From Chlorobaculum parvum NCIB 8327 (GTDB taxonomy: Bacteria > Bacteroidota > Chlorobiia > Chlorobiales > Chlorobiaceae), in the NCBI RefSeq assembly GCF_000020505.1, contig NC_011027.1, positions 1,472,001 to 1,536,000 on the forward strand: a DNA stretch of 64,000 bases. The letters are read 5' to 3'. Of this stretch, positions 739 to 52,015 are shown in pieces. Below the pieces are notes generated by a model. The model did not search any database and was not told the origin of the DNA. It saw only the letters and a list, made by a program, of their open reading frames with translations. Position 1 is the stretch's first letter. Every line of letters begins with the position of its first letter. A program made the translations under genes and the position numbers.

Positions 739-2922
739 GTGGATAACCAGCACCAGAATTCGGCGAGCCCTCAAAAACGGCAATATATCGTCGTTGTGCA
801 TGGCATGGGCGAGCAGAAAACCAATGTCACGGCCCCTCCGGTTGTAGAGCGTTTCGGTGAAGCTCGCCACAGAGAACCCGTCTCTCCAGATTCAAAAAAA
901 CAGTGGTTTCAACGCAGCTCATCCTCCGAAACCCCGACCTATAATTTTATCATACCGGCCAATCTCTCGGAACAAACCGTTCGCAATGACGGAATCGGTC
1001 ACGGCTGGGCAGAATTCGAGGGGATTTCCGTATCGCAGGATTCCAACCCGCAGGAATTCAACGGAGCGATTTCCACTGACCCCAACGGCAAGAACTTCAG
1101 ATTCGTCGATATAGCCTGGCAATTCATTCTCAGGAGCGATATTGAAACCTTCGGTTCCTCAACCGAAGAGTGGGCCTCGGCCCTGCTCGAAAAGCTTGAG
1201 CTTCGGAAGAAGAATGGCAAGCCGATGGCTTCCTGGGCGCTGCCAATGCTCAAGTCCATCGTCAATACGGCCATCCCCGTTAAAGAGATGCTGGCATTCA
1301 AATATGCCGCCTTGACGAAACTGGTTTTTGACGGCTTCCTGGGCGACGTGCATCTTTATGGCGATTACGGCAGAACCCGAGGACGCGCGGTCAGGCATTT
1401 CCATGTCGTGCTGGATGAAATCATGATCAGGGATTTTCTGCAATGGTACTGGCAAATCTATTACCAGAGCAAAGAGCAGAACGCTAAAAAACCGGCATAC
1501 GAACCACCGGAATTCACCATCATCGCGCACAGTCTCGGCAGCATCATGAGTTTCGACTCGCTGGTCTACGCGCACATCAGGGACGACATCCGGCGAAACG
1601 ACTACACCAGCGAAGAGTGGCCCGAGAGCCTGCCGTTTCCAGGCTACGATTTCATTCATGACATCGAAAAAAAGAACTGGAACTACCTGCACGGCAAACT
1701 CCAGAGCATATGGAAAGCCGAGCAAGGCAACCCGGCTATTCTCGACGTTATCAGGCACATCATTCCAAATGCAGACGAGCTGTTTAACGCCGATACCGCG
1801 CATGCAAACGGTGACCAACAAGAGCACAAGAGCATTGCCGCACCTGAAATCCCCTACGTATCATGGAAAAATCATGTAACCAATTTCATCACCATCGGCT
1901 CTCCTATCGATAAATTTCTTGCACTCTGGCCTGATAATTATCTGCACCTCTACGACACTGGAACAGTCACCACGTCCGCCCCGGAAAAGATGTATCATTA
2001 CAACTTCTGCGACGAACAGGATCCGGTTGGCCATCATCTGGAAGAGGCGATGAAAACTCCGGTGTATCAAACGCTGTTCAACACCGACCCGATAGGCAAT
2101 CACGATGTCGTTTTCAGGCGTTACGGCATTCCCGGCGTTGCGCACAACCTGTACTGGACGGATCAGGAGCTTTTCTTCGGCATCATTGACAAAATTATCG
2201 ACACCAAAACCGCCAACACCAGCGACGACTTTGTCTGGAAGGAGATTCACGAAAAAACAAGAGCGTTCAAATCAGCGAAACGGTGGGCCTATTACCTGAT
2301 TCCGTTAATCACCACACTGGCAACAACGGCGCTGGTCAGTTATGGCATCCTGAACGACTCGCTCTTATGGCGCTGGCTGTCCATCATTGCCGCTGTTCTG
2401 CTCTGGGTGCAGCCGAACCTGCTGACGGCATACAAGGATGAAACCGCCGACAGCCGCAAAATGGCCCCGTCATGGCTCGAAGATAAATGGAATAAAATCC
2501 GGCCGGTCAGGGGTATTTTCAGCCGTCTGGTCAGCGCGGCGATTGAGTGGAGAAGAATCCTGATCGTCGAAAGCCTCGGCTCAAATACCGTACCAGTTGA
2601 TAATCAACCCTATGATGTCAGCGAACGCATAGCTTTCCAGAGCCAGGAGATGACCGACAAGCCCTTGAAGTATTTTGCTTTACTGGTCACCGTCGCAACC
2701 TTATCCCTCGCCGGAAGCCTTGCGCTGGGTTATACGCTTTATTATCCGGTTGAGGCTGACGCATTATTACACATCAACGTATTCACTCATCTATCCACTA
2801 TTTCGGGACCATGGTTGAACGCAGGAAAAATCGCATTCTTCTTCACGCTAAGCTATAGCCTTGTGCGCTTTTACGTTGCGGGTTCATTCCTTGGAGCCTG
2901 GAAAAGATGCAGACCGGAATAG
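739..2922 (+). CDS. Large alpha/beta-hydrolase-like protein with C-terminal membrane segments
   Basis: The frame is open from a GTG at 697, but a GTG at 739 sits just behind an AAAAGGAGAG ribosome-binding site (725-734), so a 727-residue product is preferred. Near the N-terminus is a VVVHGMGEQ oxyanion-type strand/turn (H21), and a nucleophile elbow AHSLGS puts the likely catalytic serine at about S265. The C-terminal third has about four hydrophobic segments (about residues 515-560 as a pair, 645-670 and 697-718), so the hydrolase domain is probably tethered to the inner membrane. The middle part is poorly recognisable. A lipase/esterase activity is inferred only from the fold signature; the catalytic Asp and His are not assigned. 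It converges with the next gene with a 6-nt gap and stands alone as a transcription unit. Confidence 0.6.
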   Translation: MDNQHQNSASPQKRQYIVVVHGMGEQKTNVTAPPVVERFGEARHREPVSPDSKKQWFQRSSSSETPTYNFIIPANLSEQTVRNDGIGHGWAEFEGISVSQDSNPQEFNGAISTDPNGKNFRFVDIAWQFILRSDIETFGSSTEEWASALLEKLELRKKNGKPMASWALPMLKSIVNTAIPVKEMLAFKYAALTKLVFDGFLGDVHLYGDYGRTRGRAVRHFHVVLDEIMIRDFLQWYWQIYYQSKEQNAKKPAYEPPEFTIIAHSLGSIMSFDSLVYAHIRDDIRRNDYTSEEWPESLPFPGYDFIHDIEKKNWNYLHGKLQSIWKAEQGNPAILDVIRHIIPNADELFNADTAHANGDQQEHKSIAAPEIPYVSWKNHVTNFITIGSPIDKFLALWPDNYLHLYDTGTVTTSAPEKMYHYNFCDEQDPVGHHLEEAMKTPVYQTLFNTDPIGNHDVVFRRYGIPGVAHNLYWTDQELFFGIIDKIIDTKTANTSDDFVWKEIHEKTRAFKSAKRWAYYLIPLITTLATTALVSYGILNDSLLWRWLSIIAAVLLWVQPNLLTAYKDETADSRKMAPSWLEDKWNKIRPVRGIFSRLVSAAIEWRRILIVESLGSNTVPVDNQPYDVSERIAFQSQEMTDKPLKYFALLVTVATLSLAGSLALGYTLYYPVEADALLHINVFTHLSTISGPWLNAGKIAFFFTLSYSLVRFYVAGSFLGAWKRCRPE

Positions 2923-2928
2923 CGCCTA

Positions 2929-3159
2929 TCAGCTTAGGCTCACGGCTATTTCATCGACATCATGAGCAATGACCAGCGGAATACCAAAAAGCTCAACGCC
3001 GCTGGATGAGGTTTTAAGCTGGTGCATGAAGGCGACCAGAAAATGGTGGTAGGTATGTGGCGCGGTTTTAATCGATTCCGGAGTTCGCCCCTCTTTCCGG
3101 GCGGTGTGCAATTGGGTGAGCACCTGACGCCTTATCGATTCAATTGATTCTTGGAGCAT
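2929..3159 (-). CDS. Small hypothetical protein, 76 aa
   Basis: Not recognised. The frame can be extended upstream to a TTG at 3180, but the ATG at 3159 has a strong GGAGG (3166-3170 on the complementary strand) 6-7 nt upstream, so the 76-residue form starting MLQES is preferred. The protein is a soluble, probably helical N-terminal half followed by a hydrophobic strand-rich end (GVELFGIPLVIAHDVDEIAVSLS region). It lies 77 nt downstream of the 125-residue gene in the same direction and may be its operon partner. Confidence 0.5.
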   Translation of the reverse strand: MLQESIESIRRQVLTQLHTARKEGRTPESIKTAPHTYHHFLVAFMHQLKTSSSGVELFGIPLVIAHDVDEIAVSLS

Positions 3160-24720: not shown

Positions 24721-26331
24721 ATGATCCAGCATCTTCTTAGAGCACTTATCCTGCTTGTGATGGTGTCAGCAAGCCAAGCCTTTCCAGGACTGCTTTATGC
24801 CAAATCGGCAAGCGAGATCTTTGCGCAAGCATCCCAAAGCATCGTCGTTGTCTACAATTACGATAACAAAGGTATCAAGCAACAACTTGGCAGTGGCGTT
24901 GTCATGCCTGACGGCAAGGTCGCAACCAATTTTCATGTTGTCAACAGGGCAAATAAAATCACGGTTCTCTTTAACGGAAAAGAGTTCGAAGCCAAAGCAA
25001 CCCACTCCGATCCAAAGCGTGATATATGCCTGCTGGACGTCGAGGGGCTGAACGCACCAGGTGCCGTTATAGGCAATGCCAGCCAGCTCAAGGTGGGAGA
25101 AAAGGTCTATGCAATAGGAGCACCGGAAGGCTTTGAAAAAACACTTTCCGACGGAATTGTTTCAGGATTCAGGACTGTCGATGGCGGAAACTATATTCAG
25201 ACGACAACTCCGATATCTCCCGGTTCAAGCGGTGGAGGTTTGTTCGATGAAGAAGGTCGTTTGGTAGGACTCCCCACGTTTTACATGGTCAGCGGCAAAA
25301 GCCTCAATTTCGCCGTTCCGGTCGAATGGGTGCTTGAAGCCTCCAAGCCACAACTAAGCCATGCGAAAAAGACGAGGCAATGCTCCGAGTGGCTTAACAA
25401 AGCTGCCGCTTATGAAAAAAACAAGGATTGGTCAGGCATGATCAGGCATTGTACCCTGTGGACCAAGACCCAGCCAAAAAACTGTGATGCCTGGTACTGC
25501 TTAGGTATTGCCTACAACCGCATTCAAAATGCACAAAACGCCATCAGTGCGTTTCAAAATGCGGTGCAGATCAAACCGGATAACTCTAAAGCATGGAATG
25601 ACCTTGGTTTTGCTTATGTCGTTGCAGGGATGAAACTCGAAGCCATCGAGGCCTATAAAAAATCGATCCTCACGAACCAGAACAATGCTGCAGCATGGCA
25701 AAACATAGGGATACTGTACCTAAAAAAAGGCGACCTTGATATGGCTACAGAATCTTTCCAGCAGGCAGTACAAATCAAGCCTGATTATCTCTCAGCATGG
25801 GTCAACCTCGGAATATCGCTGCAAGCAAACGGAAGTCCGAAAGAAGCCATCCAAGCCTTCACAAAAGCCATCAGTATTAATGGCAACAACTCTGTTATAT
25901 GGAATAACCTTGGCTTAGCCTACAGGGATAACGGCAATGTCGACCAATCGATCGATGCCTTCAGGCATGCACTGCAAATCAATCCAAATTATGATACCGC
26001 ACGAAACAACCTGGCCGAAACCTATCGTCTGACAGGACGTGTGGATGAAAGCATCAATACCTACATTCAGTCGACAGAAATAAATCTGAACGATTCAACA
26101 GCATGGCAAGCCCTCGGGGATGCATATACGAAGAACCATCAAAGCGACAAAGCTTTAGAGGCCTTCAAACAGGCATTGCGATGCGACCCGAACAATGTTA
26201 AAGCACTGGTCGGTTTAGGCAGACATTACGCAACCAAAAAAAATCGTGTCGTAGCTATGGACGTATACCGTCGGCTGAAAAATATCGACTCTGGAGTGGC
26301 AAAGGATTATCTCAAGAATTACCTCCTCTGA
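24721..26331 (+). CDS. Secreted trypsin-like serine protease with C-terminal TPR repeats
   Basis: Protein of 536 aa. A signal peptide (about residues 1-27, ending near LLYAKSA) sends it to the periplasm. The protease domain (about 30-210) is DegP/HhoA-like with catalytic triad H72 (NFHVV), D101 (KRDICLLDV) and S170 (PGSSGGGLFD). No PDZ domain follows; instead there are about eight TPR units from about residue 235 to the end, with the standard W-LG-AY / A--F--A--I-P pattern. TPRs should recruit protein partners, so this may be a protein-quality or processing protease. It converges on the TpsA adhesin gene across a shared terminator. Confidence 0.9.
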   Translation: MIQHLLRALILLVMVSASQAFPGLLYAKSASEIFAQASQSIVVVYNYDNKGIKQQLGSGVVMPDGKVATNFHVVNRANKITVLFNGKEFEAKATHSDPKRDICLLDVEGLNAPGAVIGNASQLKVGEKVYAIGAPEGFEKTLSDGIVSGFRTVDGGNYIQTTTPISPGSSGGGLFDEEGRLVGLPTFYMVSGKSLNFAVPVEWVLEASKPQLSHAKKTRQCSEWLNKAAAYEKNKDWSGMIRHCTLWTKTQPKNCDAWYCLGIAYNRIQNAQNAISAFQNAVQIKPDNSKAWNDLGFAYVVAGMKLEAIEAYKKSILTNQNNAAAWQNIGILYLKKGDLDMATESFQQAVQIKPDYLSAWVNLGISLQANGSPKEAIQAFTKAISINGNNSVIWNNLGLAYRDNGNVDQSIDAFRHALQINPNYDTARNNLAETYRLTGRVDESINTYIQSTEINLNDSTAWQALGDAYTKNHQSDKALEAFKQALRCDPNNVKALVGLGRHYATKKNRVVAMDVYRRLKNIDSGVAKDYLKNYLL

Positions 26332-26470: not shown

Positions 26471-29400
26471 TTAACGAATCGAAATGTCGACAACCCAGCT
26501 AAGCATTGCAGAATCGGTTATCGCCACCTTCATCGGGAAGGCATTTGATGGCGGATTGATCGCGGTGAAGGATTTACTACCTCTGTTGTAGGTGATCCAT
26601 GCCGGAAGAGGATTATTGTTTTCCAGCTTCACGGTTTCATTACCATCACCTTTCAACAGCAGCCCTTTCACCTCTTTTGGAAGTTCAAACGTAATAGCTG
26701 AACTACTGCGAAGCATTGCTTCAGGGATAAGAACATCGATCAAGCCTGTCGTACCTGCCTCAGCATTCCTGACCAGTTTGACAACCACCTGAGCAGTAGC
26801 CTCTTCGACGGTTCCAGAGGTCATCTCGGATGAAGCGACCTCACCTTCACTGCCCATAGCTACCGTCCTGGTCTCGCCAGACACACCACTCTGCTCAAGC
26901 AGCGTGCCACCACCAGTCTCTTCAGCTGAGCCGTCAGCGATAAGCTCGGCAGCACTACCAGTAGTCAGTTCCGCGAAGCTGCCGAAATCCATACCAGTTG
27001 TGTTAACCAGAGGATTAGAGCCTTTACCGCCGATGACATCTTCCGGCAGGATAACGGGACCCGGAGGAATCAGTTCAACAACATCAGCCGGATTAAGGCT
27101 CTGCTCAATCGTAAGGGTACCTGGATTATACGTGATGGAATAATTGTAATATCCCGGTTCTTCCTCCTCAATAGCTGGAATTATCTGATAGGTCCCAGCA
27201 TTGATGGCACCTTGGCTATTGCCCGTGTAAACGAGCGTACCAAGAATACTGATGTCTTCCCCATTGACGAAACCAAAGTACGTGACACCGTTGCCGCCTG
27301 TGTATGCCACCGCATCATAGGTCTTGGAGTCGTCATTGGCCGTGATCGTCAATGGGGCCTGCGTGATCGTCAGTGAGCCGTTCACGAAATCGATGTCGTA
27401 GTTCGACAGCCCACTGCCCGTGGCCGACGTCAGATTGTCGTTGTACGTGCCGGCATTTGTGCCCGTGCCCAGCGTCGTCACTCCTGTCACCGCATCACTT
27501 CCATACAGTGTACCAGAGGTAACGCTGTAGGTGTTGGTGTACTGGGTTCCGTCGTACTGGTGACTCGTCGTGCCGCCCGTGATTGTCAATGGGGCCTGCG
27601 TGATCGTCAGTGAGCCGTTCACGAAATCGATGTCGTAGTTCGACAGGCCGCTGCCCGTTGCCGACGTCAGATTGTCGTTGTACGTGCCGGCATTCGTGCC
27701 TGTGCCCAGCGTCGTCACTCCTGTCACCGCATCACTTCCATACAGTGTACCAGAGGTAACGCTGTAGGTGTTGGTGTACTGGGTTCCGTCGTACTGGTGA
27801 CTCGTCGTGCCGCCCGTGATCGTCAATGGGGCCTGCGTGATCGTCAGTGAGCCGTTCACGAAATCGATGTCGTAGTTCGACAGGCCACTGCCCGTTGCCG
27901 ACGTCAGATTGTCGTTGTACGTGCCGGCATTCGTGCCTGTGCCCAGCGTCGTTACACCGGTCACCGCATCACTTCCATACAGTGTACCAGAGGTAACGCT
28001 GTAGGTGTTGGTGTACTGGGTTCCGTCGTACTGGTGACTCGTCGTGCCGCCCGTGATCGTCAATGGGGCCTGCGTGATCGTCAGTGAGCCGTTCACGAAA
28101 TCGATGTCGTAGTTCGACAGGCCGCTGCCCGTTGCCGACGTCAGATTGTCGTTGTACGTGCCGGCATTCGTGCCTGTGCCCAGCGTCGTTACACCGGTCA
28201 CCGCATCACTTCCATACAGTGTACCAGAGGTAACGCTGTAGGTGTTGGTGTACTGGGTTCCGTCGTACTGGTGACTCGTCGTGCCGCCCGTGATCGTCAA
28301 TGGGGCCTGCGTGATCGTCAGTGAGCCGTTCACGAAATCGATGTCGTAGTTCGACAGGCCGCTGCCCGTTGCCGACGTCAGATTGTCGTTGTACGTGCCG
28401 GCATTCGTGCCCGTGCCCAGCGTCGTCACTCCTGTCACCGCATCACTTCCATACAGTGTACCAGAGGTAACGCTGTAGGTGTTGGTGTACTGGGTTCCGT
28501 CGTACTGGTGACTCGTCGTGCCGCCCGTGATCGTCAATGGGGCCTGCGTGATCGTCAGTGAGCCGTTCACGAAATCGATGTCGTAGTTCGACAGGCCACT
28601 GCCCGTTGCCGACGTCAGATTGTCGTTGTACGTGCCGGCATTCGTGCCTGTGCCCAGCGTCGTTACACCGGTCACCGCATCACTTCCATACAGTGTACCA
28701 GAGGTAACGCTGTAGGTGTTGGTGTACTGGGTTCCGTCGTACTGGTGACTCGTCGTGCCGCCCGTGATCGTCAATGGGGCCTGCGTGATCGTACCTGTAC
28801 CTGCGCCCTGCACATCGTATCCAGAAATAGACCAGTTGTCGACAACGATCGGCGTTACTTCGTTATCAATGACGTCAAAGTTCAAATTGTGCGAACCTGC
28901 ATTAACGCCATCAAAAGTGACATCGCTCGTAACTAAATCACTGTAATCAAGGCTATCAAATGAGTCGCCGTCGTCAACACTTGAAACAACACTTACAAGC
29001 TGAGGATTATTTGCCGTGTTCGTGCCGTCATAAGTCTTCGAATCAGTCAGTGTGACCGTCAGAGTTGGCTCTGTGCGATAGAAGAAGTTGTACGTGCCAT
29101 TCGTTGGAATCGACACATCACCATACTCAACACCATAGGCTTTGTATTTGAGAGCCGATTTATCAGGTCCCGACATCTGAGCAAACAGATTAGCGGTATC
29201 CGGTGTACCAGAAAAGACTGTAATGGTACTTCCAGATGACATCGCAATCGTGGCATTGGTGATAGAGACATCCCCACCCGTCGATGCCAAGGTGACATTG
29301 CCGTCACCAACGATGCCTCCAGCAGCCACCTCGTCAAGGTCATAACTGTTGGAACGGTAGAACAGCAGGTTTGCGTCGTCGGTCACCTGGCCAGTACCCA

Positions 29401-32032
29401 AGGTACCGGTCGTTCCGTTGTTGCCGACCTGAAGCGTGCCAGCATTAATCGTAGTCGTACCGCTATAGGTGTTATCACCAGTTAGTATCAGCGTGCCTGC
29501 TCCGTCCTTGGTCACGTCTCCTGTTCCCGAAATCACTCCGGCATAGCTGGAAGTATCAGAACGGTTAAACACCAGATGAGAGTTATCGAGCACATTGCCA
29601 GTACCCAGCGTACCACTCGTCATACCCGAGCCAACCCGCAGCGTTCCATCACTAATGGTGGTCGTACCGCTATAGGTGTTATTACCTATCAGCACCAGCG
29701 TACCTGTACCGTCCTTGGTCAGCGAGCCAGTGCCACTGATCGTCCCAGCTATATAGCTGGCAGTGCCGGTATTGTTCACCGTCAGGTCATAACTCCCAAG
29801 ATTGACCAAGGAGCTCATCGCAACATCCCGGGCTGTCAGCACCGAGTTACTGTTAAGAGCTACATTGCCGACATACGTCTGGTCTTCGGTGGTCGTAATG
29901 TTCCCTGTGATATAGGTCGGGCCCGTAATGTCAAGGTTGGTCAGTACCGGTGCTGAAAGCACGTCGACCACGTTGTAACTAGGGCCAATCCATGTTCCAG
30001 AAATTTCAGCCCCACTCGCGTTCCCCTCAGTAAAGGTGATTCTTGATACCTCGACTTCAGAATTGAACACAAGGTATCCTTGCCCGGTACCCATAATTTC
30101 ATAGTACGAAGAGTCAATCGGCAACCCATCTGCACCATAAACTACAACGGGCTCGGTACCGGCACGAGCATTATTTCCATTAAAGTTGAGGTGAATATTA
30201 TCACCAACCCTAAAGGTGGCATTGCCTGGCAAAAACTCACCGGTAATTGGTACGTTTGTACCCCCATTTTTATCAGAAGTAACAGTTGCCGTTGTAAAGT
30301 CAAGAGTGAAAACCGTATTGTTCAGGCTTGCACCAGAATAAGTGAAATAGTAGTCGTTCGGTGACGAACCGATTGTTCCATCCCAGTAACTACCACTGAA
30401 CCCACCTGTAGCCCCGTTGTTGAACGTGACCTGCGCTGCGGTAATTGTCAGATCATGATCACCACCGACATTGCCGTTGAACGTAACATCACCGAGCGTA
30501 GTGATCGTTGCGTCGGCAAGCAGAAGCGTATTCTGGTCTGTAGCAGTACCAAAGTTGAGGTTTAAGTCTGCGGTACTGGCGTTAATGGAGAAACTCGTTC
30601 CGTCCCCTGTCAATACAATGGTAGGAGCGTTAAGGGTCAATGTGCTTGCGGAACCTGAATAAGTCAGATCAGCAAGAAAATTGATGTCGTTGGTTGCCAC
30701 AAGGTCAACCGTCGAGAGATTCAGCTGGTAAGCAAGCCAGCCGTTAGTAATCTTTGAATATTCTCCGGAGGGTGCTACCCCATCATTGGCACCATCAATA
30801 ATAGCAATGCTATGGGGATCCAGTAAAAGAGTGCCAACTGTTCCTGCAGGAGCCAGCAAGGAAGCATGACCAGTAATGTCAAGAGAACCAAGGGAACTCA
30901 CCTCGGCAAATCCACCGTTTCCGCCGTTCGGGCCACCCTCAGCCGATATGGTACCCGCAAAGGTAGTCGCCTCGTCGGAAGAGAGAACGACGGTACCGCC
31001 GTCACCATTATCAGTCGCGTCAGCAGCAATCAAGGCGCCACTCTGCACATTCACCTCGTCACCGGTAACGACAACCGATCCGCCGTTGCCTGCGGCAGAC
31101 GAAACGTCCAGCGTACCTGAGAGGTTGACCTGCCCGCCATCGGCATCGAGAATGATCCGACCACCATCGGCCTTAATGCCTGTGGCCTGAACGATGCCCG
31201 TCTGGTTGACCACCGACTTCGTCAGCGCATCGGCTGCCTTGGCAGTCATCACCACGTAGCCGTCGCCAGCCTGAATGAGGCTGTTATTCTCAACAAGAGC
31301 ATCAATCGTTCCCTTGTCCACAGTATAGCTGATCATACCGTCACCCAGAAACTGAACCGTAACCTGGTCACCGGCCATCATGGCCACGCTTCCTGACGGG
31401 GCGCTGATCGTTCCGTTGTTGGTAACCTTCGGCGCTATCATCGCGACGACGCCACCATTGGCTGTTATCGCTCCTTCGTTGACTACTGAACCGGCCGAAC
31501 CTGCGTTCGTAAACTGGTAGTTTCCCGTAAGGAAATCGCTGTCACTGATATCAAGCGAAGAAGCCACCAAACCACCGACATTCACGGTCGCGGTTTTGCC
31601 AAACATGACGCCAGCACGGTTTACAAGCATCAAATTGCCATTCGCCGAAAGCGTACCCAGAATCTCGCTGGGGTTTTGGTCGGAAATCCTGTTGAGCGCA
31701 ACCGAAGTAGAATTCGGCTGAACAAAATTCACGGAAGCGTCCTCACCGATGTTGAAGGTGCTCCAGTTGGCAATGAGCTGCTGGGTCGCCTGATCGACCG
31801 TCATCTGGGTGCCGCTGGTGGTGATGCTCGCGCTACCTGCCGCGACCTGACCACCAGTAGGCAATGCTCCCGGATCGAGGGCCATTGCTGGCGATGCCAT
31901 TGCCATAAATGCTGCGAGGCTCATAATAGCCCCTACGGTGAACATGTAGGCGCCTTTTGCCGAACTTTTCTCCGACACGACGATCCATTTATCTTTCACC
32001 GCTGACCAGACAATGCGAAATATCTTGTTCAT
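26471..32032 (-). CDS. Two-partner secretion exoprotein (TpsA), filamentous-haemagglutinin-like adhesin with MBG repeats
   Basis: Secreted or cell-surface beta-helix protein of 1853 aa. It starts with an extended signal peptide (MNKIFRIVWSAVKDKWIVVSE..., cleavage near AMALD), then the TPS recognition domain (about 55-300, with NWSTFNIGEDASVNFVQP, NRISDQNPSEILG and ANGNLMLVNRAGVMFG). The middle has autotransporter-associated repeats (SGTGSLTKDGTGTLVLIGNN type, two units at about 770-860), a YDG-type domain (TDSKTYDGTNTA, about 995), and six nearly identical 79-residue MBG units (about 1086-1560) plus one diverged unit. The last ~200 residues are non-repetitive and end in a beta-rich domain. 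It lies 136 nt behind its transporter gene, the usual TpsB-TpsA order. Function as adhesin or in cell-cell contact is inferred from the family. Confidence 0.93.
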   Translation of the reverse strand: MNKIFRIVWSAVKDKWIVVSEKSSAKGAYMFTVGAIMSLAAFMAMASPAMALDPGALPTGGQVAAGSASITTSGTQMTVDQATQQLIANWSTFNIGEDASVNFVQPNSTSVALNRISDQNPSEILGTLSANGNLMLVNRAGVMFGKTATVNVGGLVASSLDISDSDFLTGNYQFTNAGSAGSVVNEGAITANGGVVAMIAPKVTNNGTISAPSGSVAMMAGDQVTVQFLGDGMISYTVDKGTIDALVENNSLIQAGDGYVVMTAKAADALTKSVVNQTGIVQATGIKADGGRIILDADGGQVNLSGTLDVSSAAGNGGSVVVTGDEVNVQSGALIAADATDNGDGGTVVLSSDEATTFAGTISAEGGPNGGNGGFAEVSSLGSLDITGHASLLAPAGTVGTLLLDPHSIAIIDGANDGVAPSGEYSKITNGWLAYQLNLSTVDLVATNDINFLADLTYSGSASTLTLNAPTIVLTGDGTSFSINASTADLNLNFGTATDQNTLLLADATITTLGDVTFNGNVGGDHDLTITAAQVTFNNGATGGFSGSYWDGTIGSSPNDYYFTYSGASLNNTVFTLDFTTATVTSDKNGGTNVPITGEFLPGNATFRVGDNIHLNFNGNNARAGTEPVVVYGADGLPIDSSYYEIMGTGQGYLVFNSEVEVSRITFTEGNASGAEISGTWIGPSYNVVDVLSAPVLTNLDITGPTYITGNITTTEDQTYVGNVALNSNSVLTARDVAMSSLVNLGSYDLTVNNTGTASYIAGTISGTGSLTKDGTGTLVLIGNNTYSGTTTISDGTLRVGSGMTSGTLGTGNVLDNSHLVFNRSDTSSYAGVISGTGDVTKDGAGTLILTGDNTYSGTTTINAGTLQVGNNGTTGTLGTGQVTDDANLLFYRSNSYDLDEVAAGGIVGDGNVTLASTGGDVSITNATIAMSSGSTITVFSGTPDTANLFAQMSGPDKSALKYKAYGVEYGDVSIPTNGTYNFFYRTEPTLTVTLTDSKTYDGTNTANNPQLVSVVSSVDDGDSFDSLDYSDLVTSDVTFDGVNAGSHNLNFDVIDNEVTPIVVDNWSISGYDVQGAGTGTITQAPLTITGGTTSHQYDGTQYTNTYSVTSGTLYGSDAVTGVTTLGTGTNAGTYNDNLTSATGSGLSNYDIDFVNGSLTITQAPLTITGGTTSHQYDGTQYTNTYSVTSGTLYGSDAVTGVTTLGTGTNAGTYNDNLTSATGSGLSNYDIDFVNGSLTITQAPLTITGGTTSHQYDGTQYTNTYSVTSGTLYGSDAVTGVTTLGTGTNAGTYNDNLTSATGSGLSNYDIDFVNGSLTITQAPLTITGGTTSHQYDGTQYTNTYSVTSGTLYGSDAVTGVTTLGTGTNAGTYNDNLTSATGSGLSNYDIDFVNGSLTITQAPLTITGGTTSHQYDGTQYTNTYSVTSGTLYGSDAVTGVTTLGTGTNAGTYNDNLTSATGSGLSNYDIDFVNGSLTITQAPLTITGGTTSHQYDGTQYTNTYSVTSGTLYGSDAVTGVTTLGTGTNAGTYNDNLTSATGSGLSNYDIDFVNGSLTITQAPLTITANDDSKTYDAVAYTGGNGVTYFGFVNGEDISILGTLVYTGNSQGAINAGTYQIIPAIEEEEPGYYNYSITYNPGTLTIEQSLNPADVVELIPPGPVILPEDVIGGKGSNPLVNTTGMDFGSFAELTTGSAAELIADGSAEETGGGTLLEQSGVSGETRTVAMGSEGEVASSEMTSGTVEEATAQVVVKLVRNAEAGTTGLIDVLIPEAMLRSSSAITFELPKEVKGLLLKGDGNETVKLENNNPLPAWITYNRGSKSFTAINPPSNAFPMKVAITDSAMLSWVVDISIR
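27354..28775 (-). repeat. Six tandem 237-bp repeats inside the adhesin gene
   Basis: Exact period of 237 bp (79 codons) with boundaries at 27354, 27591, 27828, 28065, 28302 and 28539. Copies differ by only a few bases, and the variants are shuffled: GTCACTCCTGTC is in copies 1, 2 and 5 and GTTACACCGGTC in copies 3, 4 and 6, while CCACTG/CCGCTG variants follow a different order. This mosaic pattern points to recent unequal crossover or gene conversion. Confidence 0.98.
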
Positions 32033-32168
32033 GGTAGTATTATTCTATGTCTTGACAAGCCTTATGAACTCCAAAACCTCTACGTTACCTCTGTTTTCAA
32101 GATCGAGAGGCTCTACAGAACTGCCACCTTGCCCGACCTGTTTGATCGCCCAACATCCTACGGGTGAT

Positions 32169-33893
32169 TCAGAAAAAAAGCACTGCTTGAAGCCAGAAAC
32201 GATCACGATCATCTTTGCCGTCGGAATTGTTTCCGTAAATGTCCCTGCCGGGATTCTTGCCGATCGCATGCGCCCAGCTACCCCGAAGGCTGAACCTCGA
32301 AGAGTAATCGTAATTGACTCCAAGACCGGCGCCCTGCAACCAGTAGGTGTTCTTTCCCGTTGCTGTATCGACATTCGTCCCTTTCAGATCATGATGTAAC
32401 TGGACCTGACCCGCATCGTAGAAACCGAAAAGCTGAACACTTCCACGAAGCGATTCTACCGGTATAGCATAACGCAAATCCACATTGATCATCTGGCCTT
32501 GGTCACCCAAGCCTTCGCCAAGCGGATAAGCCCTTACGCCGTAGGGGCCGCCCAATGAAAATTGCTCGCTCGTATCGAGGTTCTGTGGCGCAAGCTGACC
32601 CGTCCACGAAATGCTTGCAGTCGTCTGGGGGGCGAGATGGTGAAGATGATACAGGGCGAAATTGAATCTCGAAAACTGGCCCGTCTCAGCCAGGTTGGTG
32701 CCCAGCAGGTCAACAGGGCGGTTCAAATCGCCCAATGTCACCATGGCACGGAACGAAGTGTACGAGTTTCCCAAGATGGAATCCCAACGCTCTCCTTTCA
32801 GGCCAAAGGACACGTCATTCGTATAGCGTTCACGGTAGGTCTGACCATTGTACCACTGATCTTTCAACTCCCGGTATGCGTAACCCGCCGAAGCAACCAT
32901 AATTGACTTCCGGGTCCTTATAATCGGATAGTCAAGGCCAAGATTGATTTCATAACTGCCGCCATCAAATCCGTAAACCGACAACTCCTTACCCAATTCA
33001 TAGTGCATTGCCTTGAACCCCACGTTACCCCTGAGACCATCGTAGAGAATCGGGAAAGAGTAATTGATTGCGCCCTGCCTCAGATCACCGGAATAGGTAC
33101 CTGTGAAATCGAGCTTGTCTCCGCATCCACTCAGATCATTCAACGTCACCTGAGCATTAGTACGCCACTCACCTGTATAGCGGTTTCCAAAGTTGTCTTC
33201 CGACACGTTTCCTGAAACCAGGGGGCCTTCAACCACGGTGAGATCTATCTGACTCGTTCCGGAATAAAATCCTGAAGAGAGCGAAGCTTTGGCGCTGATG
33301 ACACCAGGAATATCGTTCATCAACACGACAGCCTTCTCAAACTCTTTCTGATTCATGGCCTTACCTTTGGCCACAGAATCACCGATCATATTCTCAAGAA
33401 AGCATTGCTTGAGCCTTGGTGCTTGTTCCAAATTGTAGCGGACGGTGCCATCGCTCTTGCCCTGCTCAACCCGGATAATGATTATCCCCTGGGTAATATC
33501 CTGCTTCGGAAGGTAGGCCCACGACAGGAACCAACCCCTCTCCTTGAGAACTGACGTAATCTTGTTTGTCAGCCTTTGGAGGTCGCCAAAAGAAAGCTCC
33601 TGTCCTACGGATGACGCCACAATATTGTTGAGCTCTTTCTCAGTAATCACCCCTTCGTAGCCTTGGAATGAGAACCCCTTGACACGGACACGCACTCCGT
33701 CATCTGGTTGCATTCCCTCTTCGAATGGCTCCACCTCAGGCTTCTTCAACTGATCGGAGGGGAGCATGCGCTGCGGTTCCTGTTCGCGCAGGAGACTACC
33801 CGCATCAGGGGTCGGTGCGAATGGTGCAGCTTGCAGAGTGCCTGCGGTAAGCACTAACCCCGCAAAACCAAATCCTATTATCTTTGTTCTCAT
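32169..33893 (-). CDS. Two-partner secretion transporter (TpsB, ShlB/FhaC family)
   Basis: Outer-membrane Omp85-superfamily channel of 574 aa that exports the TpsA partner encoded next to it. A signal peptide (MRTKIIGFGFAGLVLTAGTLQA) precedes a short linker rich in Glu/Pro, a POTRA domain (about 60-140: VRVKGFSFQGYEGVITEKEL, ITSVLKERGWFLSWAYLP), a second POTRA-like part, and a C-terminal 16-strand barrel ending in an aromatic residue (QAVLFF). The VRAYPLGEGLGDQG segment is the conserved loop-6 VRGY-like motif. First gene of the operon. Confidence 0.93.
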   Translation of the reverse strand: MRTKIIGFGFAGLVLTAGTLQAAPFAPTPDAGSLLREQEPQRMLPSDQLKKPEVEPFEEGMQPDDGVRVRVKGFSFQGYEGVITEKELNNIVASSVGQELSFGDLQRLTNKITSVLKERGWFLSWAYLPKQDITQGIIIIRVEQGKSDGTVRYNLEQAPRLKQCFLENMIGDSVAKGKAMNQKEFEKAVVLMNDIPGVISAKASLSSGFYSGTSQIDLTVVEGPLVSGNVSEDNFGNRYTGEWRTNAQVTLNDLSGCGDKLDFTGTYSGDLRQGAINYSFPILYDGLRGNVGFKAMHYELGKELSVYGFDGGSYEINLGLDYPIIRTRKSIMVASAGYAYRELKDQWYNGQTYRERYTNDVSFGLKGERWDSILGNSYTSFRAMVTLGDLNRPVDLLGTNLAETGQFSRFNFALYHLHHLAPQTTASISWTGQLAPQNLDTSEQFSLGGPYGVRAYPLGEGLGDQGQMINVDLRYAIPVESLRGSVQLFGFYDAGQVQLHHDLKGTNVDTATGKNTYWLQGAGLGVNYDYSSRFSLRGSWAHAIGKNPGRDIYGNNSDGKDDRDRFWLQAVLFF

Positions 33894-47191: not shown

Positions 47192-47758
47192 ATGAGTTCA
47201 CCATTGCAGAAGGCGCTCGTCTTCAAATTTCTGAGCCGCACCCTGGCCTATCCGAACCAGGCGTTCATTCCTACGCTCGTCGAGGTATCGGACGAAATCG
47301 AAACGGGCAAAGAGGAGCGTCAGGCACTCATCAGAGCCTTCGAGCTTGAGGAGACCGAGCCGCTTCAGGCCGAATACACGCGCCTGTTCATCAACGGCTA
47401 CCCGCACACCGCCTGCCCGCCCTACGAATCGATCTATCTGGAAAAGCGGATGCACGGCGACGCTGCCGTAGCGGTCTCTGCCGCCTATGCCGAATGGGAG
47501 ATGACCGTGGAGCCGGGACTGATCGACCACCTATCGACAGAGCTGGAGTTCCTTGCCTTTCTCGCCTCCGCGGAATCGCTGGACAAAGCCGTGAGCAAGG
47601 ATGCCCAAAAAGCCTCAGAGCGATTCATCCGTCAGCACCTCTGCCGCTGGGTGCCACAATTTATTGATGATTTGAAAGAGGGCGCGAAACTCGAAGCCTA
47701 CCGAAAGCTGGGAGAATTGATGGAGAGCGTGCTAGGGGAATATTGCGAGAAAGGATGA
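47192..47758 (+). CDS. TorD/DmsD-family molybdoenzyme chaperone
   Basis: All-helical cytoplasmic chaperone of 188 aa. The signature EYTRLFINGYPHTACPPYESIYLEKR and the later DHLSTELEFLAFLA are diagnostic of the TorD/NarJ group. It should bind the PsrA Tat signal and guard cofactor insertion before export. Last gene of the psrABC operon. Confidence 0.9.
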   Translation: MSSPLQKALVFKFLSRTLAYPNQAFIPTLVEVSDEIETGKEERQALIRAFELEETEPLQAEYTRLFINGYPHTACPPYESIYLEKRMHGDAAVAVSAAYAEWEMTVEPGLIDHLSTELEFLAFLASAESLDKAVSKDAQKASERFIRQHLCRWVPQFIDDLKEGAKLEAYRKLGELMESVLGEYCEKG

Positions 47759-47787
47759 TGGCCTACCAGTCAGATTGTTTCCATAAC

Positions 47788-48090
47788 TCATGAATCCAGA
47801 GTCTTTACTTCGCTCAAAAATCCCTCAAGTGTCATGATTTCAGCTCGAATATCCTTGTGATACAATTTTATGATCTCTGCCGGAACGACGAGCTGCACAT
47901 CATGCGCACGCATTTCACGGAACTGATTTAGCGAAATGCCTTGCTGTACGGTCAGCAAATGCTTTTTGCCGATTCGGTTCGCTTCGTTCAGTACCTGCCT
48001 CCACCTGTCCTTGCAGGTGGGAATGCGAATCCCTATAATTCTTGAAAAGAATTTGCACTTCAAAGTTGCATCAAGAGTTTCTGACCGCAT
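47788..48090 (-). pseudogene. Remnant of an EcoRII-type restriction endonuclease (C-terminal end)
   Basis: The 100-codon frame carries TCKDRWRQVLNEANRIGKKH, LTVQQGISLNQFREM and LVVPAEI, which correspond to the C-terminal catalytic domain end of EcoRII-like type II endonucleases. As remembered for the family, a catalytic Lys lies four residues before the Lys of TCKDRW; here that position is Ile, the second Lys is kept, and the rest of the catalytic domain and the whole N-terminal DNA-binding domain are missing. No cognate methylase is nearby. It is divergent from the nuclease-helicase gene with a 20-nt gap. Confidence 0.7.
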
Positions 48091-48110
48091 AACCCCTCAA
48101 TTCAAAAATT

Positions 48111-50093
48111 ATGAATCGGTCATGGTACAGCGCAAGTATTGAAGTCTTTCAACATGCTTCCGATGAGCAAGTTATCGGAGAACTCGTGTTGAACAGTACC
48201 TTTGCCGACCTCCCAACTCAAAAAATTGCATGGATCAAAGAGATTTCGATCCTTCGTAAAGCCTTACAAGGCCATGATGGCTGGTTGCATCTTGAATTCA
48301 ACATTCCACGCATGGGTCGTCGGATCGATGCCGTTCTGCTGATTAAAGGTATTGTCATAGCCATTGAATTCAAGATCGATGCCAATCAATATCTCATGAC
48401 AGATATTGACCAATCCTACGATTATGCGCTCGACCTGAAATATTTCCATGAGGCGAGTCACAACGCAATCGTCATTCCGGTATTGCTCGCAACAAAAGCT
48501 CAAGCTAATCCTGCTTTATTGTTTAAGCATCCAAGGATTCTAGGGCTTTATGAACCAGTGCGCACCAACGAAGCCGAATTTGCTTCAACGCTTAAAGCAA
48601 TTATTCATCAAATTCCCGAGACCACTCTTGACCCAAAATTATGGGCTGATGCTGCGTATCGACCAACACCGACCATTATCGAAGCTGCCAGAGCACTTTA
48701 TGCAGGTCATGGTGTTGCTGAAATATCAAGGAACGATGCCGGAGCGATCAACCTCACGAAGACCTCGGAACAGCTTTTTCGCATCATTGACCAAGCAAGA
48801 GAAAAGAAAGAAAAAGTCATTTGCTTCGTCACCGGGGTGCCTGGAGCAGGAAAAACCCTTGTCGGTCTGAATATTGCCACCCGTTATAGCGATGAACAAA
48901 GCGAACTCTATAGCGTTTTTCTCTCTGGCAATAAACCGCTTGTAGATATTCTTCGTGAAGCACTTGCTCGTGATACTATTCTTCGAGAAAAACTGAACCA
49001 CGGAAAAAAGCTTAAAAAGTCAGAAGCGCAAACAAGGGTTAAGGCATTTATTCAAAATGTCCACCATTTCCGTGATGATTGCCAAAAGAACGATGGACAA
49101 GCTCCGGTAGAGCATGTTGCGCTTTTTGACGAAGCACAACGCGCGTGGAACAAGGAGCAGACTTCATTCTTCATGAAGCAGAAAAAAGGCGTTCCTGATT
49201 TTGAAATATCCGAGCCTGAATACCTCATTTCTTGTATGGATCGCAGAGACGATTGGGCAGTCATTGTTTGCCTTGTCGGTGGCGGTCAGGAAATCAACAC
49301 TGGAGAAGCTGGTATCAGCGCATGGATTGAAGCGGTCAGGGAAAAATATCCTGATTGGCATCTGTTTATTTCGTCGGCGTTGACCGATAGCGAATATGAG
49401 TCTGGTGAAGTACTTGCATCAATCCAAACGCGAAAGAACGTCCATTTCCATAATGAGCTTCATCTCGCCACTTCTATGCGCTCTTTTAGGGCGGAAAGCG
49501 TTTCAAGGTTTGTCAAAACGGTGCTTGATTGTGAAGTCGAGGAAGCAAAGGCTCTCTATCAACAGCTTCAGGAGCGTTACCCAATTGTTCTCACCAGAAA
49601 CCTTGATTGTGCCAAAGAATGGCTGAAAGCGCAAGCGAGAGGCTCAGAGCGTTATGGCATGGTTGTATCATCTCAAGCTCAACGTCTCAAACCCTATGCT
49701 ATCGATGTTCGGTCTCCAATGAATCACATTAAATGGTTCCTCGACGGTAAGGAGGATGTTCGTTCATCTTACTATCTCGAAGAGGTTGCTACTGAGTTTC
49801 ACGTTCAAGGTCTGGAGCTTGATTGGGCCTGTGTTTCGTGGGATGGGGACTTCCGTTACGGAAATAAAGGTTGGGAGCATTACTCATTCCGGGGCAATAA
49901 ATGGCAGCAAATCAAAAGCGAATCGCGAAAACAATATCAGAAAAATGCTTACCGAGTCTTGCTCACCAGAGCTCGACAAGGGATGGTCATTTTTGTGCCG
50001 GAAGGGAGCGGCGATGATCCGACAAGATCATCCAGATTTTATGATAGCACTTACAAATACCTCAAAGCCTTGGGTGTTGAGGAGATTGGCTAA
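48111..50093 (+). CDS. PD-(D/E)XK nuclease fused to DUF2075 helicase-like ATPase
   Basis: Cytosolic protein of 660 aa. N-terminal part (about 1-180) has the PD-(D/E)XK nuclease core: E62, D73 in RRIDAVLL, and E86-x-K88 in IAIEFKID. The second part is a superfamily 1-type helicase/ATPase of the DUF2075 group: Walker A GVPGAGKT (about 242-249), Walker B ALFDEAQRAW (about 336-345), the FHVQGLELDW motif V-like segment and the C-terminal AYRVLLTRARQGMVIFVP motif VI. A nuclease and DNA-motor in one chain suggests phage or plasmid defence or DNA repair. Base composition is AT-richer than the psr genes, and it neighbours a restriction-enzyme remnant. Confidence 0.85.
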   Translation: MNRSWYSASIEVFQHASDEQVIGELVLNSTFADLPTQKIAWIKEISILRKALQGHDGWLHLEFNIPRMGRRIDAVLLIKGIVIAIEFKIDANQYLMTDIDQSYDYALDLKYFHEASHNAIVIPVLLATKAQANPALLFKHPRILGLYEPVRTNEAEFASTLKAIIHQIPETTLDPKLWADAAYRPTPTIIEAARALYAGHGVAEISRNDAGAINLTKTSEQLFRIIDQAREKKEKVICFVTGVPGAGKTLVGLNIATRYSDEQSELYSVFLSGNKPLVDILREALARDTILREKLNHGKKLKKSEAQTRVKAFIQNVHHFRDDCQKNDGQAPVEHVALFDEAQRAWNKEQTSFFMKQKKGVPDFEISEPEYLISCMDRRDDWAVIVCLVGGGQEINTGEAGISAWIEAVREKYPDWHLFISSALTDSEYESGEVLASIQTRKNVHFHNELHLATSMRSFRAESVSRFVKTVLDCEVEEAKALYQQLQERYPIVLTRNLDCAKEWLKAQARGSERYGMVVSSQAQRLKPYAIDVRSPMNHIKWFLDGKEDVRSSYYLEEVATEFHVQGLELDWACVSWDGDFRYGNKGWEHYSFRGNKWQQIKSESRKQYQKNAYRVLLTRARQGMVIFVPEGSGDDPTRSSRFYDSTYKYLKALGVEEIG

Positions 50094-50118
50094 AAATCAC
50101 CTTGATTAGCGGCTAAAG

Positions 50119-50508
50119 TTACCAAATGTCATTTGGGTCAAATACCTTCCATCCATTTTTCCAACATTTCTCTACATGCTTCACAAACGCCCCAATCGTT
50201 CGATCCTGCAAATCAATATCTTCTCTTGAAGCATCAACTGCTTCAATGGAGTCATACTCATGAAGGCAGTGGTCATCGGCGTTAACTGAATACTCATCCT
50301 CTTCGAAAAGAAAAACCTCTGGTAGTTCAGCTTGTTTGGCGTTGAACAAGCATTTCATGTCAAAACAGCTTTCCAGCCGTCTGTTGATTTCCCCGAGTTC
50401 CAACCCTTCCGGGTTCTCAAAATCGGCAAAACCCCACTTTTTGTAATTCCCTCCGTCACGATAGAGATACTTGAAGCGAATTATTGAGTTTTTAGCACTT
50501 TGCTCCAT
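50119..50508 (-). CDS. Hypothetical protein, 129 aa
   Basis: Function not recognised, though the pattern IRFKYLYRDGGNYKKWGFADFENPEGLELGEI and the DDHCLHEYDSIE segment look like a widespread family of small stand-alone bacterial proteins. Acidic, soluble, no signal. It converges with the nuclease-helicase gene (25-nt gap) and belongs to the same AT-richer patch. Confidence 0.6.
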   Translation of the reverse strand: MEQSAKNSIIRFKYLYRDGGNYKKWGFADFENPEGLELGEINRRLESCFDMKCLFNAKQAELPEVFLFEEDEYSVNADDHCLHEYDSIEAVDASREDIDLQDRTIGAFVKHVEKCWKNGWKVFDPNDIW

Positions 50509-50665
50509 TGTCGGATGTCGGTGTTGGTTTATGTCCGCCCTGATTTCAGGCGCAGTTCTATAAAAGACTTGGTGTCAGATAAGGGGACGCTGGTAATTGA
50601 GACATGCAAAGCAGCCCCACTGAAACAGCTTGAAAAGCATCAACAGGCGGCCATCATCACCGCGT

Positions 50666-52015
50666 CTACTTCCCCTCGAACACCACGCGCAACGTGTCGT
50701 TCTGGAGACGGGCTTTGAGCCATTTCTCCACTTTGGTACGGTCGGCAAGTCTGAGAGGCTTGCTTGTGGAGAGCAGCACGTAGGGCTGCCGTATGGCCTT
50801 TGCGCCGGTCTTGTCGCTGAAAAGGTAGGGTTCAGCGTAGAGGCAGCTGGTAACCTGAGGGAACAAGGGCTTGACCTCGTTGAGAAGTTTCAGGCCGGTA
50901 TAGCTGACCTGGCGAAGGCTGTCCTGCTGCTGGGCTTTCCGCTGCAGAACCGCATTGAGACGGGCTATTTCAAGCTTCAGCTGATCGGTTTCCTGCATCT
51001 GATTCAACTTGTCCTGATACAGCTGAGCCTGATACGCCTTGTCATCACCGATCACCAGTCCCTGCTCAAAGGTCAGGGTCGCCTCGTCGAGGTCGAACTC
51101 GATGGCGCGTTTGCGCAAAGCGGTCTTGTTCTCCGCAGTCAGCGGCTTGCCGCCATAAACGAGCAAGATCGAACGATCACCGGCATCGATATCGTAACGC
51201 AAAAGGTAATCGCCCTCGAAAATGCTGACGTTCTGGATGAACTTCGTGGCATCTCGCATGAAATTCTCCTTCTTGACAAGCACATACCCGAAATAGAGAC
51301 TCGGAACAAGCATCACAAAAGTGACCACCGTAATGAGGCGGTGGATGCCAACTTTCTTCTCCTCGGCAAGAGTGCTTCGAAGCGGAATACGCATCACGCG
51401 CGCGAACCAGGCGTTGGCAAGGCCGATGAAGACACTGTTGATGGCGAACAGGTACATCGCGCCGAAAAAGAACTTGAAATGGCCCGTAGCCAGCCCGTAA
51501 CCCGCCGTGCAGAGCGGCGGCATGAGAGCGGTCGCAATCGCCACGCCCGGCACCACGTTACCCTTGAGCTTGGTCGTCAGGGCAATCGCTCCGGCAAGGC
51601 CGCCGAACAGGGCGATCAGCACGTCGTAAATGGTCGGGCTGGTGCGCGCAAGCAGCTCCGAGTGGGCGCTGGAGACGGGGGTGATGGCAAAATAAAGCGT
51701 CGAAGCCACAAGGCTCGAAACAACCGCAAACGAATAGTTCTTGAACGAGCGGCGCAGCAGCGGAAAATCGTAGGTAGCAAGGCTGTAGCCCATGCCGTTG
51801 ATCGGCCCCATGAGTGGAGAAATCAACATGGCGCCGATGATCACCGCGGTGGAGTTCATGTTGAGCCCGACCGAAGCCAGAATGATCGCCGAAACCAGCA
51901 CCCAAAGACGCGCTCCGGTGAACACGATATCGGTCTCGACTGCCTCATGAACCACATCGGGTGCTTCAGCATGCTGCCGTAAATTGAGATGTCTGAGCAC
52001 TGACTTCAGGAACAT
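50666..52015 (-). CDS. DUF389 (TIGR00341) membrane protein
   Basis: Protein of 449 aa. The N-terminal 210 residues hold about six helices with the family motifs SVGLNMNSTAVIIGAMLISPLMGPINGMGYSL and GNVVPGVAIATALMPPLCTAGYGLA. The C-terminal half is soluble with a coiled-coil stretch (QLYQDKLNQMQETDQLKLEIARLNAVLQRKAQQQD) and a mixed domain. Function unknown in the family. The following gene in the same direction, further from its start, is unrelated; 69 nt separate it from the small upstream gene. Confidence 0.85.
   Translation of the reverse strand: MFLKSVLRHLNLRQHAEAPDVVHEAVETDIVFTGARLWVLVSAIILASVGLNMNSTAVIIGAMLISPLMGPINGMGYSLATYDFPLLRRSFKNYSFAVVSSLVASTLYFAITPVSSAHSELLARTSPTIYDVLIALFGGLAGAIALTTKLKGNVVPGVAIATALMPPLCTAGYGLATGHFKFFFGAMYLFAINSVFIGLANAWFARVMRIPLRSTLAEEKKVGIHRLITVVTFVMLVPSLYFGYVLVKKENFMRDATKFIQNVSIFEGDYLLRYDIDAGDRSILLVYGGKPLTAENKTALRKRAIEFDLDEATLTFEQGLVIGDDKAYQAQLYQDKLNQMQETDQLKLEIARLNAVLQRKAQQQDSLRQVSYTGLKLLNEVKPLFPQVTSCLYAEPYLFSDKTGAKAIRQPYVLLSTSKPLRLADRTKVEKWLKARLQNDTLRVVFEGK

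Follow-up and report, generated by a model that had tools for sequence, protein, structure and literature searches.

Among the systems described so far, Nhi (SERP2475) joins nuclease and helicase activity in a single protein (PMC12904381, PMC11811056), and it appears to require the phage SSB for its activity (PMC12904381). The PDC systems of PADLOC are called unpublished candidates (PMC11811056); one of them, PDC-S41 (PDLC05014, a candidate of Payne et al. 2021), has the same two-domain architecture as the protein analysed here, and our literature search on DUF2075 and PDC-S41 found neither a functional paper nor an experimental record of the PDC-S41 family. The protein is encoded in a stretch of 64,000 nucleotides from Chlorobaculum parvum NCIB 8327 (hereafter the window). 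We propose, with a probability of about 0.72, that its locus is a two-gene anti-phage cassette, composed of PDC-S41 and a small protein that we call p129, which displaced an EcoRII-type restriction-modification (R-M) operon and now resides in a defence hotspot.

The nuclease-helicase and its distribution

The source genome is a single contig of 2,289,249 bases that contains the window. The GC content of the PDC-S41 block is 0.45, compared with about 0.56-0.60 in its surroundings, in agreement with a preliminary description of this DNA that had spoken of an AT-richer block; the coordinates and the parts that it listed, including the open frame of 660 codons, are correct (Table 1). Elsewhere in the window, positions 26471-33893 encode a two-partner secretion pair (a TpsA-like exoprotein of 1853 aa and a ShlB-type transporter), and an AT-richer segment at 24721-26331 encodes a protein in which a long TPR array is joined to a trypsin-like protease domain.

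Table 1. Features of the locus, in window coordinates
Feature	Position	Strand	Basis
TorD/nitrate-reductase-delta-like chaperone	47192..47758	+	Pfam Nitrate_red_del, 98 bits
EcoRII-type endonuclease remnant	47788..48090	-	EcoRII-C, 94 bits, profile positions 98-165
Cassette-side junction segment, from EcoRII break to PDC-S41 start	48021..48110		alignment
PDC-S41 nuclease-helicase, 660 aa, intact	48111..50093	+	PADLOC PDC-S41, 947 bits
Predicted N-terminal PD-(D/E)XK nuclease domain, aa 1-200	48111..48710	+	invariant residues, AlphaFold2, fold search
Catalytic codons, plus Q101xxxY105	D73 48327-48329; E86 48366-48368; K88 48372-48374	+	
SF1 helicase domain, aa 235-630	48813..50000	+	Pfam PF09848, motifs, fold
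p129, companion protein of 129 aa	50119..50508	-	in no library family; conserved motifs
C5-methyltransferase gene, 5'-end scar	50539..50576	-	34/38 bp to L145 5573-5610; reads TKSFIELRLKSG
DUF389 membrane protein, bounding the hotspot on the right	50666..52015	-	Pfam DUF389, 153 bits

The match to the PADLOC model of PDC-S41 spans nearly the whole protein (aa 1-659 against positions 1-653 of 657), and the helicase half matches the Pfam family PF09848 (SLFN-g3_helicase, formerly DUF2075) with 290 bits against a curated cut-off of 24. The Walker A and Walker B motifs, from which a helicase-like ATPase had been proposed, lie at aa 241-249 (TGVPGAGKT) and aa 339-344 (FDEAQR), and motif VI at aa 614-622; in an alignment of 23 sequences the SF1 motifs are conserved and their core residues invariant. 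The folds nearest to a model of the whole protein are those of human SLFN14, Upf1 and GajB, a likeness driven by the helicase part, which is as similar to RNA-acting SF1 enzymes (Upf1, SLFN14) as to DNA-acting ones.

In the N-terminal part, the proposed PD-(D/E)XK residues D73, E86 and K88 are present; neither these three nor E62, Q101 and Y105 vary in the 23 sequences (the protein of the window plus homologues of 84% to 30% identity) or in an alignment of 12. The order E-D-ExK-QxxxY is the RecB/Cas4-type arrangement among PD-(D/E)XK nucleases, and in the alignment PDC-S41 has this catalytic set. The AlphaFold2 model of the whole protein (pLDDT 82) contains the expected nuclease core, and that of aa 1-200 (pLDDT 86) shows a core of the order helix-strand-strand-strand-helix-strand, so that the structure prediction recommended earlier did not fail to produce the PD-(D/E)XK fold. 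In a fold search with this domain nearly all the top PDB folds were PD-(D/E)XK nucleases, mostly DNases, including Can2, Cdn1, McrC, BspD6I, Card1, MspJI and ACE1, each match being weak on its own (best E 1.4e-3, TM about 0.35); sequence searches against the PDB (phmmer/hmmsearch) gave no significant match for either the nuclease or the helicase domain. We regard the N-terminus as a predicted PD-(D/E)XK nuclease domain, its activity resting on motifs and fold; its substrate would be DNA, which it would degrade.

As previously maintained, the nuclease-helicase is still intact: the frame is open, all catalytic residues are kept, and the dN/dS of about 0.08-0.16 in comparisons among cassettes (about 0.08-0.11 when the window copy is compared with the rest) shows purifying selection. 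One other copy, in the draft genome G008 (L075, 9172-11150), is split into two frames with in-frame stops, by either decay or an assembly error.

PDC-S41 occurs in 7 of the 21 genomes of the genus, 11 of the 98 of the order and 33 of the 394 in the sample of the phylum. The homologues are thus patchy and lie in variable islands, and not in conserved repair loci, the distribution that the preliminary description had named as contrary to its reading. That description also called for a neighbourhood survey, and part of the expected picture appeared: distant homologues adjoin C5-MTase, DUF4420 and AIPR genes at two unrelated loci (L087, L153), Vsr and Z1 (L104), BglII with an N4/N6-MTase (L152), or type I R-M (L105 and L156, one of them with McrBC), and one lies within an HNH_2 operon (L080). 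The other part did not, since at L079, L083, L086 and L088 there is no recognisable defence neighbour, and the survey is a raw tally, uncontrolled by matched loci. Relatives of about 29% identity lie beside lysis genes on near-identical contigs of prophage type (L157-L162); in viral contigs a single-sequence PDC-S41 query found nothing, while a query with the alignment found homologues. Three architectures deserve separate mention: L087 (3648-12200, with a Z1-like gene) and L153 (3169-9962) possibly represent a composite system, in L082 (9127-11496) PDC-S41 carries a fused NUDIX domain (PADLOC PDC-S07) at its N-terminus, and in L104 a NUDIX-like gene (2660-3061) directly follows PDC-S41.

Restriction scars, cassette exchange and the hotspot

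EcoRII homology inside the stump ORF is confined to positions 47795-48020, the last ~75 codons, which match the structure 1na6 with E 1.6e-22 and share 81% DNA identity with the intact EcoRII gene of the relative G007 (L145), a gene that carries both EcoRII-N and EcoRII-C domains. The stump keeps the Lys of CKDRW (EcoRII K328) and, in accord with the reported loss of one catalytic Lys, is without that of AVKTTC (K324), because the junction falls just 3' of the K324 codon; everything upstream of that codon is missing too. At the locus we found neither an EcoRII-N domain nor a complete EcoRII-C site, the match being restricted to the profile positions in Table 1. The stump in the window has an open frame and a start codon, but other copies either are interrupted by in-frame stops or lack a start, and a functional stump was rejected on these grounds. 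As separate observations, the stumps of the window (47795-48020), L069, L070 and L147 look coding-like despite their truncation (dN/dS 0.03-0.05), and at about 48000-48025, at the EcoRII/cassette junction, the window copy has a 7-bp inverted repeat, CCACCTG-6-CAGGTGG.

The intact operon of G007 consists of C5-MTase, Vsr and EcoRII, where Vsr is deduced from a gap in the operon and from the same gene order in L141-L146. On the other side of the cassette we found a second scar, absent from the preliminary description, namely the 5' end of the MTase gene, which has the strand and order expected of an EcoRII operon and a score of 56; the best of 300 shuffles reached 39, and the best of 100 control windows 30. 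Beyond this 38-bp scar, no MTase of the L145 type was found elsewhere in the source genome. Since the 3' end of EcoRII lies on one side and the 5' end of the MTase on the other, PDC-S41 and p129 occupy the place of the operon body, with a remnant of the lost restriction operon at either end. The earlier picture of an intact nuclease-helicase amid decayed restriction genes is thereby upheld, and sharpened to the replacement of an EcoRII-type operon.

The exchange of operon for cassette can be followed at an orthologous locus. Behind p129, PDC-S41 and the EcoRII stump of G014 (L072) and G004 (L071) comes a fragment of a type III restriction enzyme, the same one that comes after the intact EcoRII in G007 (L145); L072 also retains a 97-bp segment with 93% identity to DNA upstream of the MTase in G007. 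Copies about 79-80% identical to the cassette (window 47795-50510) occur in G001, G015 and G008; as these loci share it and no similarity outside it, it has also moved. The EcoRII junction is at the identical nucleotide in 6 of 6 cassettes, and alignment shows that the adjoining segment 48021-48110, which presumably holds the PDC-S41 promoter, is common to all six scarred cassettes. The stumps of L071 and L072 belong to another lineage of EcoRII (about 50% identical), and the PDC-S41 proteins of these loci are 81-83% identical. The junctions could plausibly be explained by recurrent recombination inside the conserved 3' end of EcoRII.

The TorD-like gene, the last of a polysulphide-reductase-like operon, marks the left border of the wider interval. 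Within the genus, TorD orthologues were found in 11 and DUF389 orthologues in 12 of 21 genomes, and synteny of the two genes is retained in other Chlorobaculum, where the content of the interval varies. According to PADLOC, the interval holds Gabija in G003 (GajA 899 bits, GajB 832 bits), SIR2-HerA-DUF3800 in G008, Lamassu-type genes in G004 and Helicase-DUF2290 in G001, to whose ORFs those of G020 are closely similar; G015 has a P-type ATPase there, and no gene was called in G019. In total, 6 of the 8 readable sites, the window included, carry a defence or candidate defence system. With such different systems, PDC-S41 among them, between the same two genes, the TorD-DUF389 interval (window 47759-50665; L089-L097) is a Chlorobaculum defence hotspot, in which a search for more defence genes of this group could readily begin.

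The companion protein and the proposed function

The small neighbour, regarded from the start as a protein of no recognisable kind, matches no family in Pfam, PADLOC, NCBIfam or PHROGs. Its closer relatives share the invariant motifs YLYRD...N.K and DDHCxHE, and dN/dS values mostly of 0.06-0.18 show that p129 is under purifying selection. All seven Chlorobaculum loci have it next to PDC-S41: in six it is downstream and convergent, and in G010 it lies upstream and the two genes overlap. At the loci without PDC-S41 (L136, L137-L140, L192-L196), a p129 homologue accompanies an HNH_2 nuclease in nine cases (four from the Chlorobium family, five from distant Bacteroidota) and a PLD-helicase type IV enzyme in one (G013). 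As it recurs with these three partners, p129 is a modular, mobile companion of unrelated defence nucleases; none was found in plasmids and viral contigs. Outside the Chlorobaculum group no homologue was found beside PDC-S41, so p129 is probably not obligatory for the family, and the suggestion that the two proteins are partners holds for Chlorobaculum. Most likely p129 modulates nuclease activity or targeting, and its association with three unrelated defence nucleases poses a testable question of common control or targeting. It is tempting to go further and regard p129 as the founder of a family of small mobile companions that give unrelated nucleases a shared trigger, target recognition or restraint, with the PDC-S41/p129 cassette spreading by swaps into R-M operons at one fixed EcoRII point; we consider this combined scenario possible, if rather doubtful.

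PDC-S41 itself likely acts as an anti-phage nuclease-helicase, because the hotspot is shared with validated systems, an R-M operon was replaced with two scars left behind, and the catalytic residues are conserved. According to the mechanism we propose, the SF1 motor would load on invading or replicating phage DNA at an end, a single-stranded gap or a replication intermediate, translocate by ATP hydrolysis and feed the strand to the N-terminal PD-(D/E)XK nuclease, which would degrade it. Since the cassette is without a methyltransferase of its own, self and non-self would probably be told apart by the state of the DNA or by a phage protein and not be read from a methylated sequence, with p129 tuning the activity or the targeting of the nuclease. 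DNA as the substrate, the anti-phage effect, the trigger and the role of p129 are inferences from the genomic data.

The convergent pair could instead be of the toxin-antitoxin type and act by abortive infection, the nuclease-helicase being harmful to the host once triggered, with p129 as its inhibitor. Such a pair would agree with the position of p129 beside three unrelated nucleases, either upstream and co-directional or directly downstream, with the inclusion of PF09848 among the Pfams listed for Abi proteins (PMC10121019), and with the distant relationship of AbiO within the wider superfamily; we consider it unlikely, however, as convergent genes, found in six cassettes, are unusual for a toxin-antitoxin operon, and PDC-S41 outside Chlorobaculum was found with no p129 homologue. 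The C5-MTase, Vsr, HNH_2 and BglII/MTase neighbours of distant homologues, as well as the replacement of an EcoRII operon at the present locus, could also mean that PDC-S41 is an accessory motor-nuclease of R-M systems, working with a cytosine methyltransferase or a methyl-directed nuclease, and that it has been orphaned here. Yet most PDC-S41 loci are without an adjoining methyltransferase, the partners belong to unrelated R-M types, as expected of islands, and in Chlorobaculum the protein has been kept under purifying selection after the R-M genes were lost, which makes this a quite unlikely account.

The name of the helicase family and the nearest fold of the whole model both point to Schlafen, and an RNA-directed enzyme of this type would cleave tRNA or phage RNA; it is improbable here, given an N-terminus of the PD-(D/E)XK type whose nearest folds are mostly DNases, and no AlbA_2 core domain detected. 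A UvrD/RecD-like motor joined to a nuclease would equally suit a housekeeping enzyme of DNA repair in green sulfur bacteria, but a gene missing from about 90% of the order, variable in position and located in a hotspot is scarcely to be expected of one, and we give this reading very little credence. The two-gene anti-phage cassette is the reading we prefer. The locus provides a concrete case in which one defence system has displaced another with both scars left, and for PDC-S41, a candidate defence family with no experimental report found, independent lines of comparative genomic evidence argue strongly here for a role in defence.

Relation to known systems

Gabija shares with PDC-S41 a UvrD-like motor combined with a nuclease, GajB is among the fold neighbours of the latter, and in G003 Gabija occupies the same chromosomal site. 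However, it consists of two proteins with an OLD/TOPRIM nuclease, whereas PDC-S41 is one protein with a predicted PD-(D/E)XK nuclease, and we rejected Gabija as an assignment on finding no GajA-sized ORF at the locus and a GajB match of 12 bits only. The Schlafen proteins (SLFN11/14) have a helicase domain of the same family and fold, but their nuclease is an AlbA_2 RNase core; a Schlafen RNase was rejected as no AlbA_2 Pfam match was found in the 660-aa protein. The HNH_2-type restriction endonuclease (PADLOC HNH, PDLC04132), associated with a p129 homologue in Bacteroidota and Chlorobi, is unrelated in fold to PDC-S41 and has no helicase.

With Nhi and AbiO, PDC-S41 shares a related P-loop region, the match being limited to the surroundings of Walker A, and membership in either family was rejected (Nhi 15.9 bits, aa 227-266 only; AbiO 22.6 bits, around Walker A only). 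A search for Nhi across the phylum was uninformative, because its model weakly matches many helicases. Homology along the length of the protein links PDC-S41 to a wider sister family (L163-L170), of which the two members tested match both the PDC-S41 and the AbiO models, one of them also matching Nhi. Nhi is the nearest mechanistic model for PDC-S41. The closest match overall is the PADLOC entry itself, which is a single-gene candidate, and to which the locus in the window adds the linked p129.
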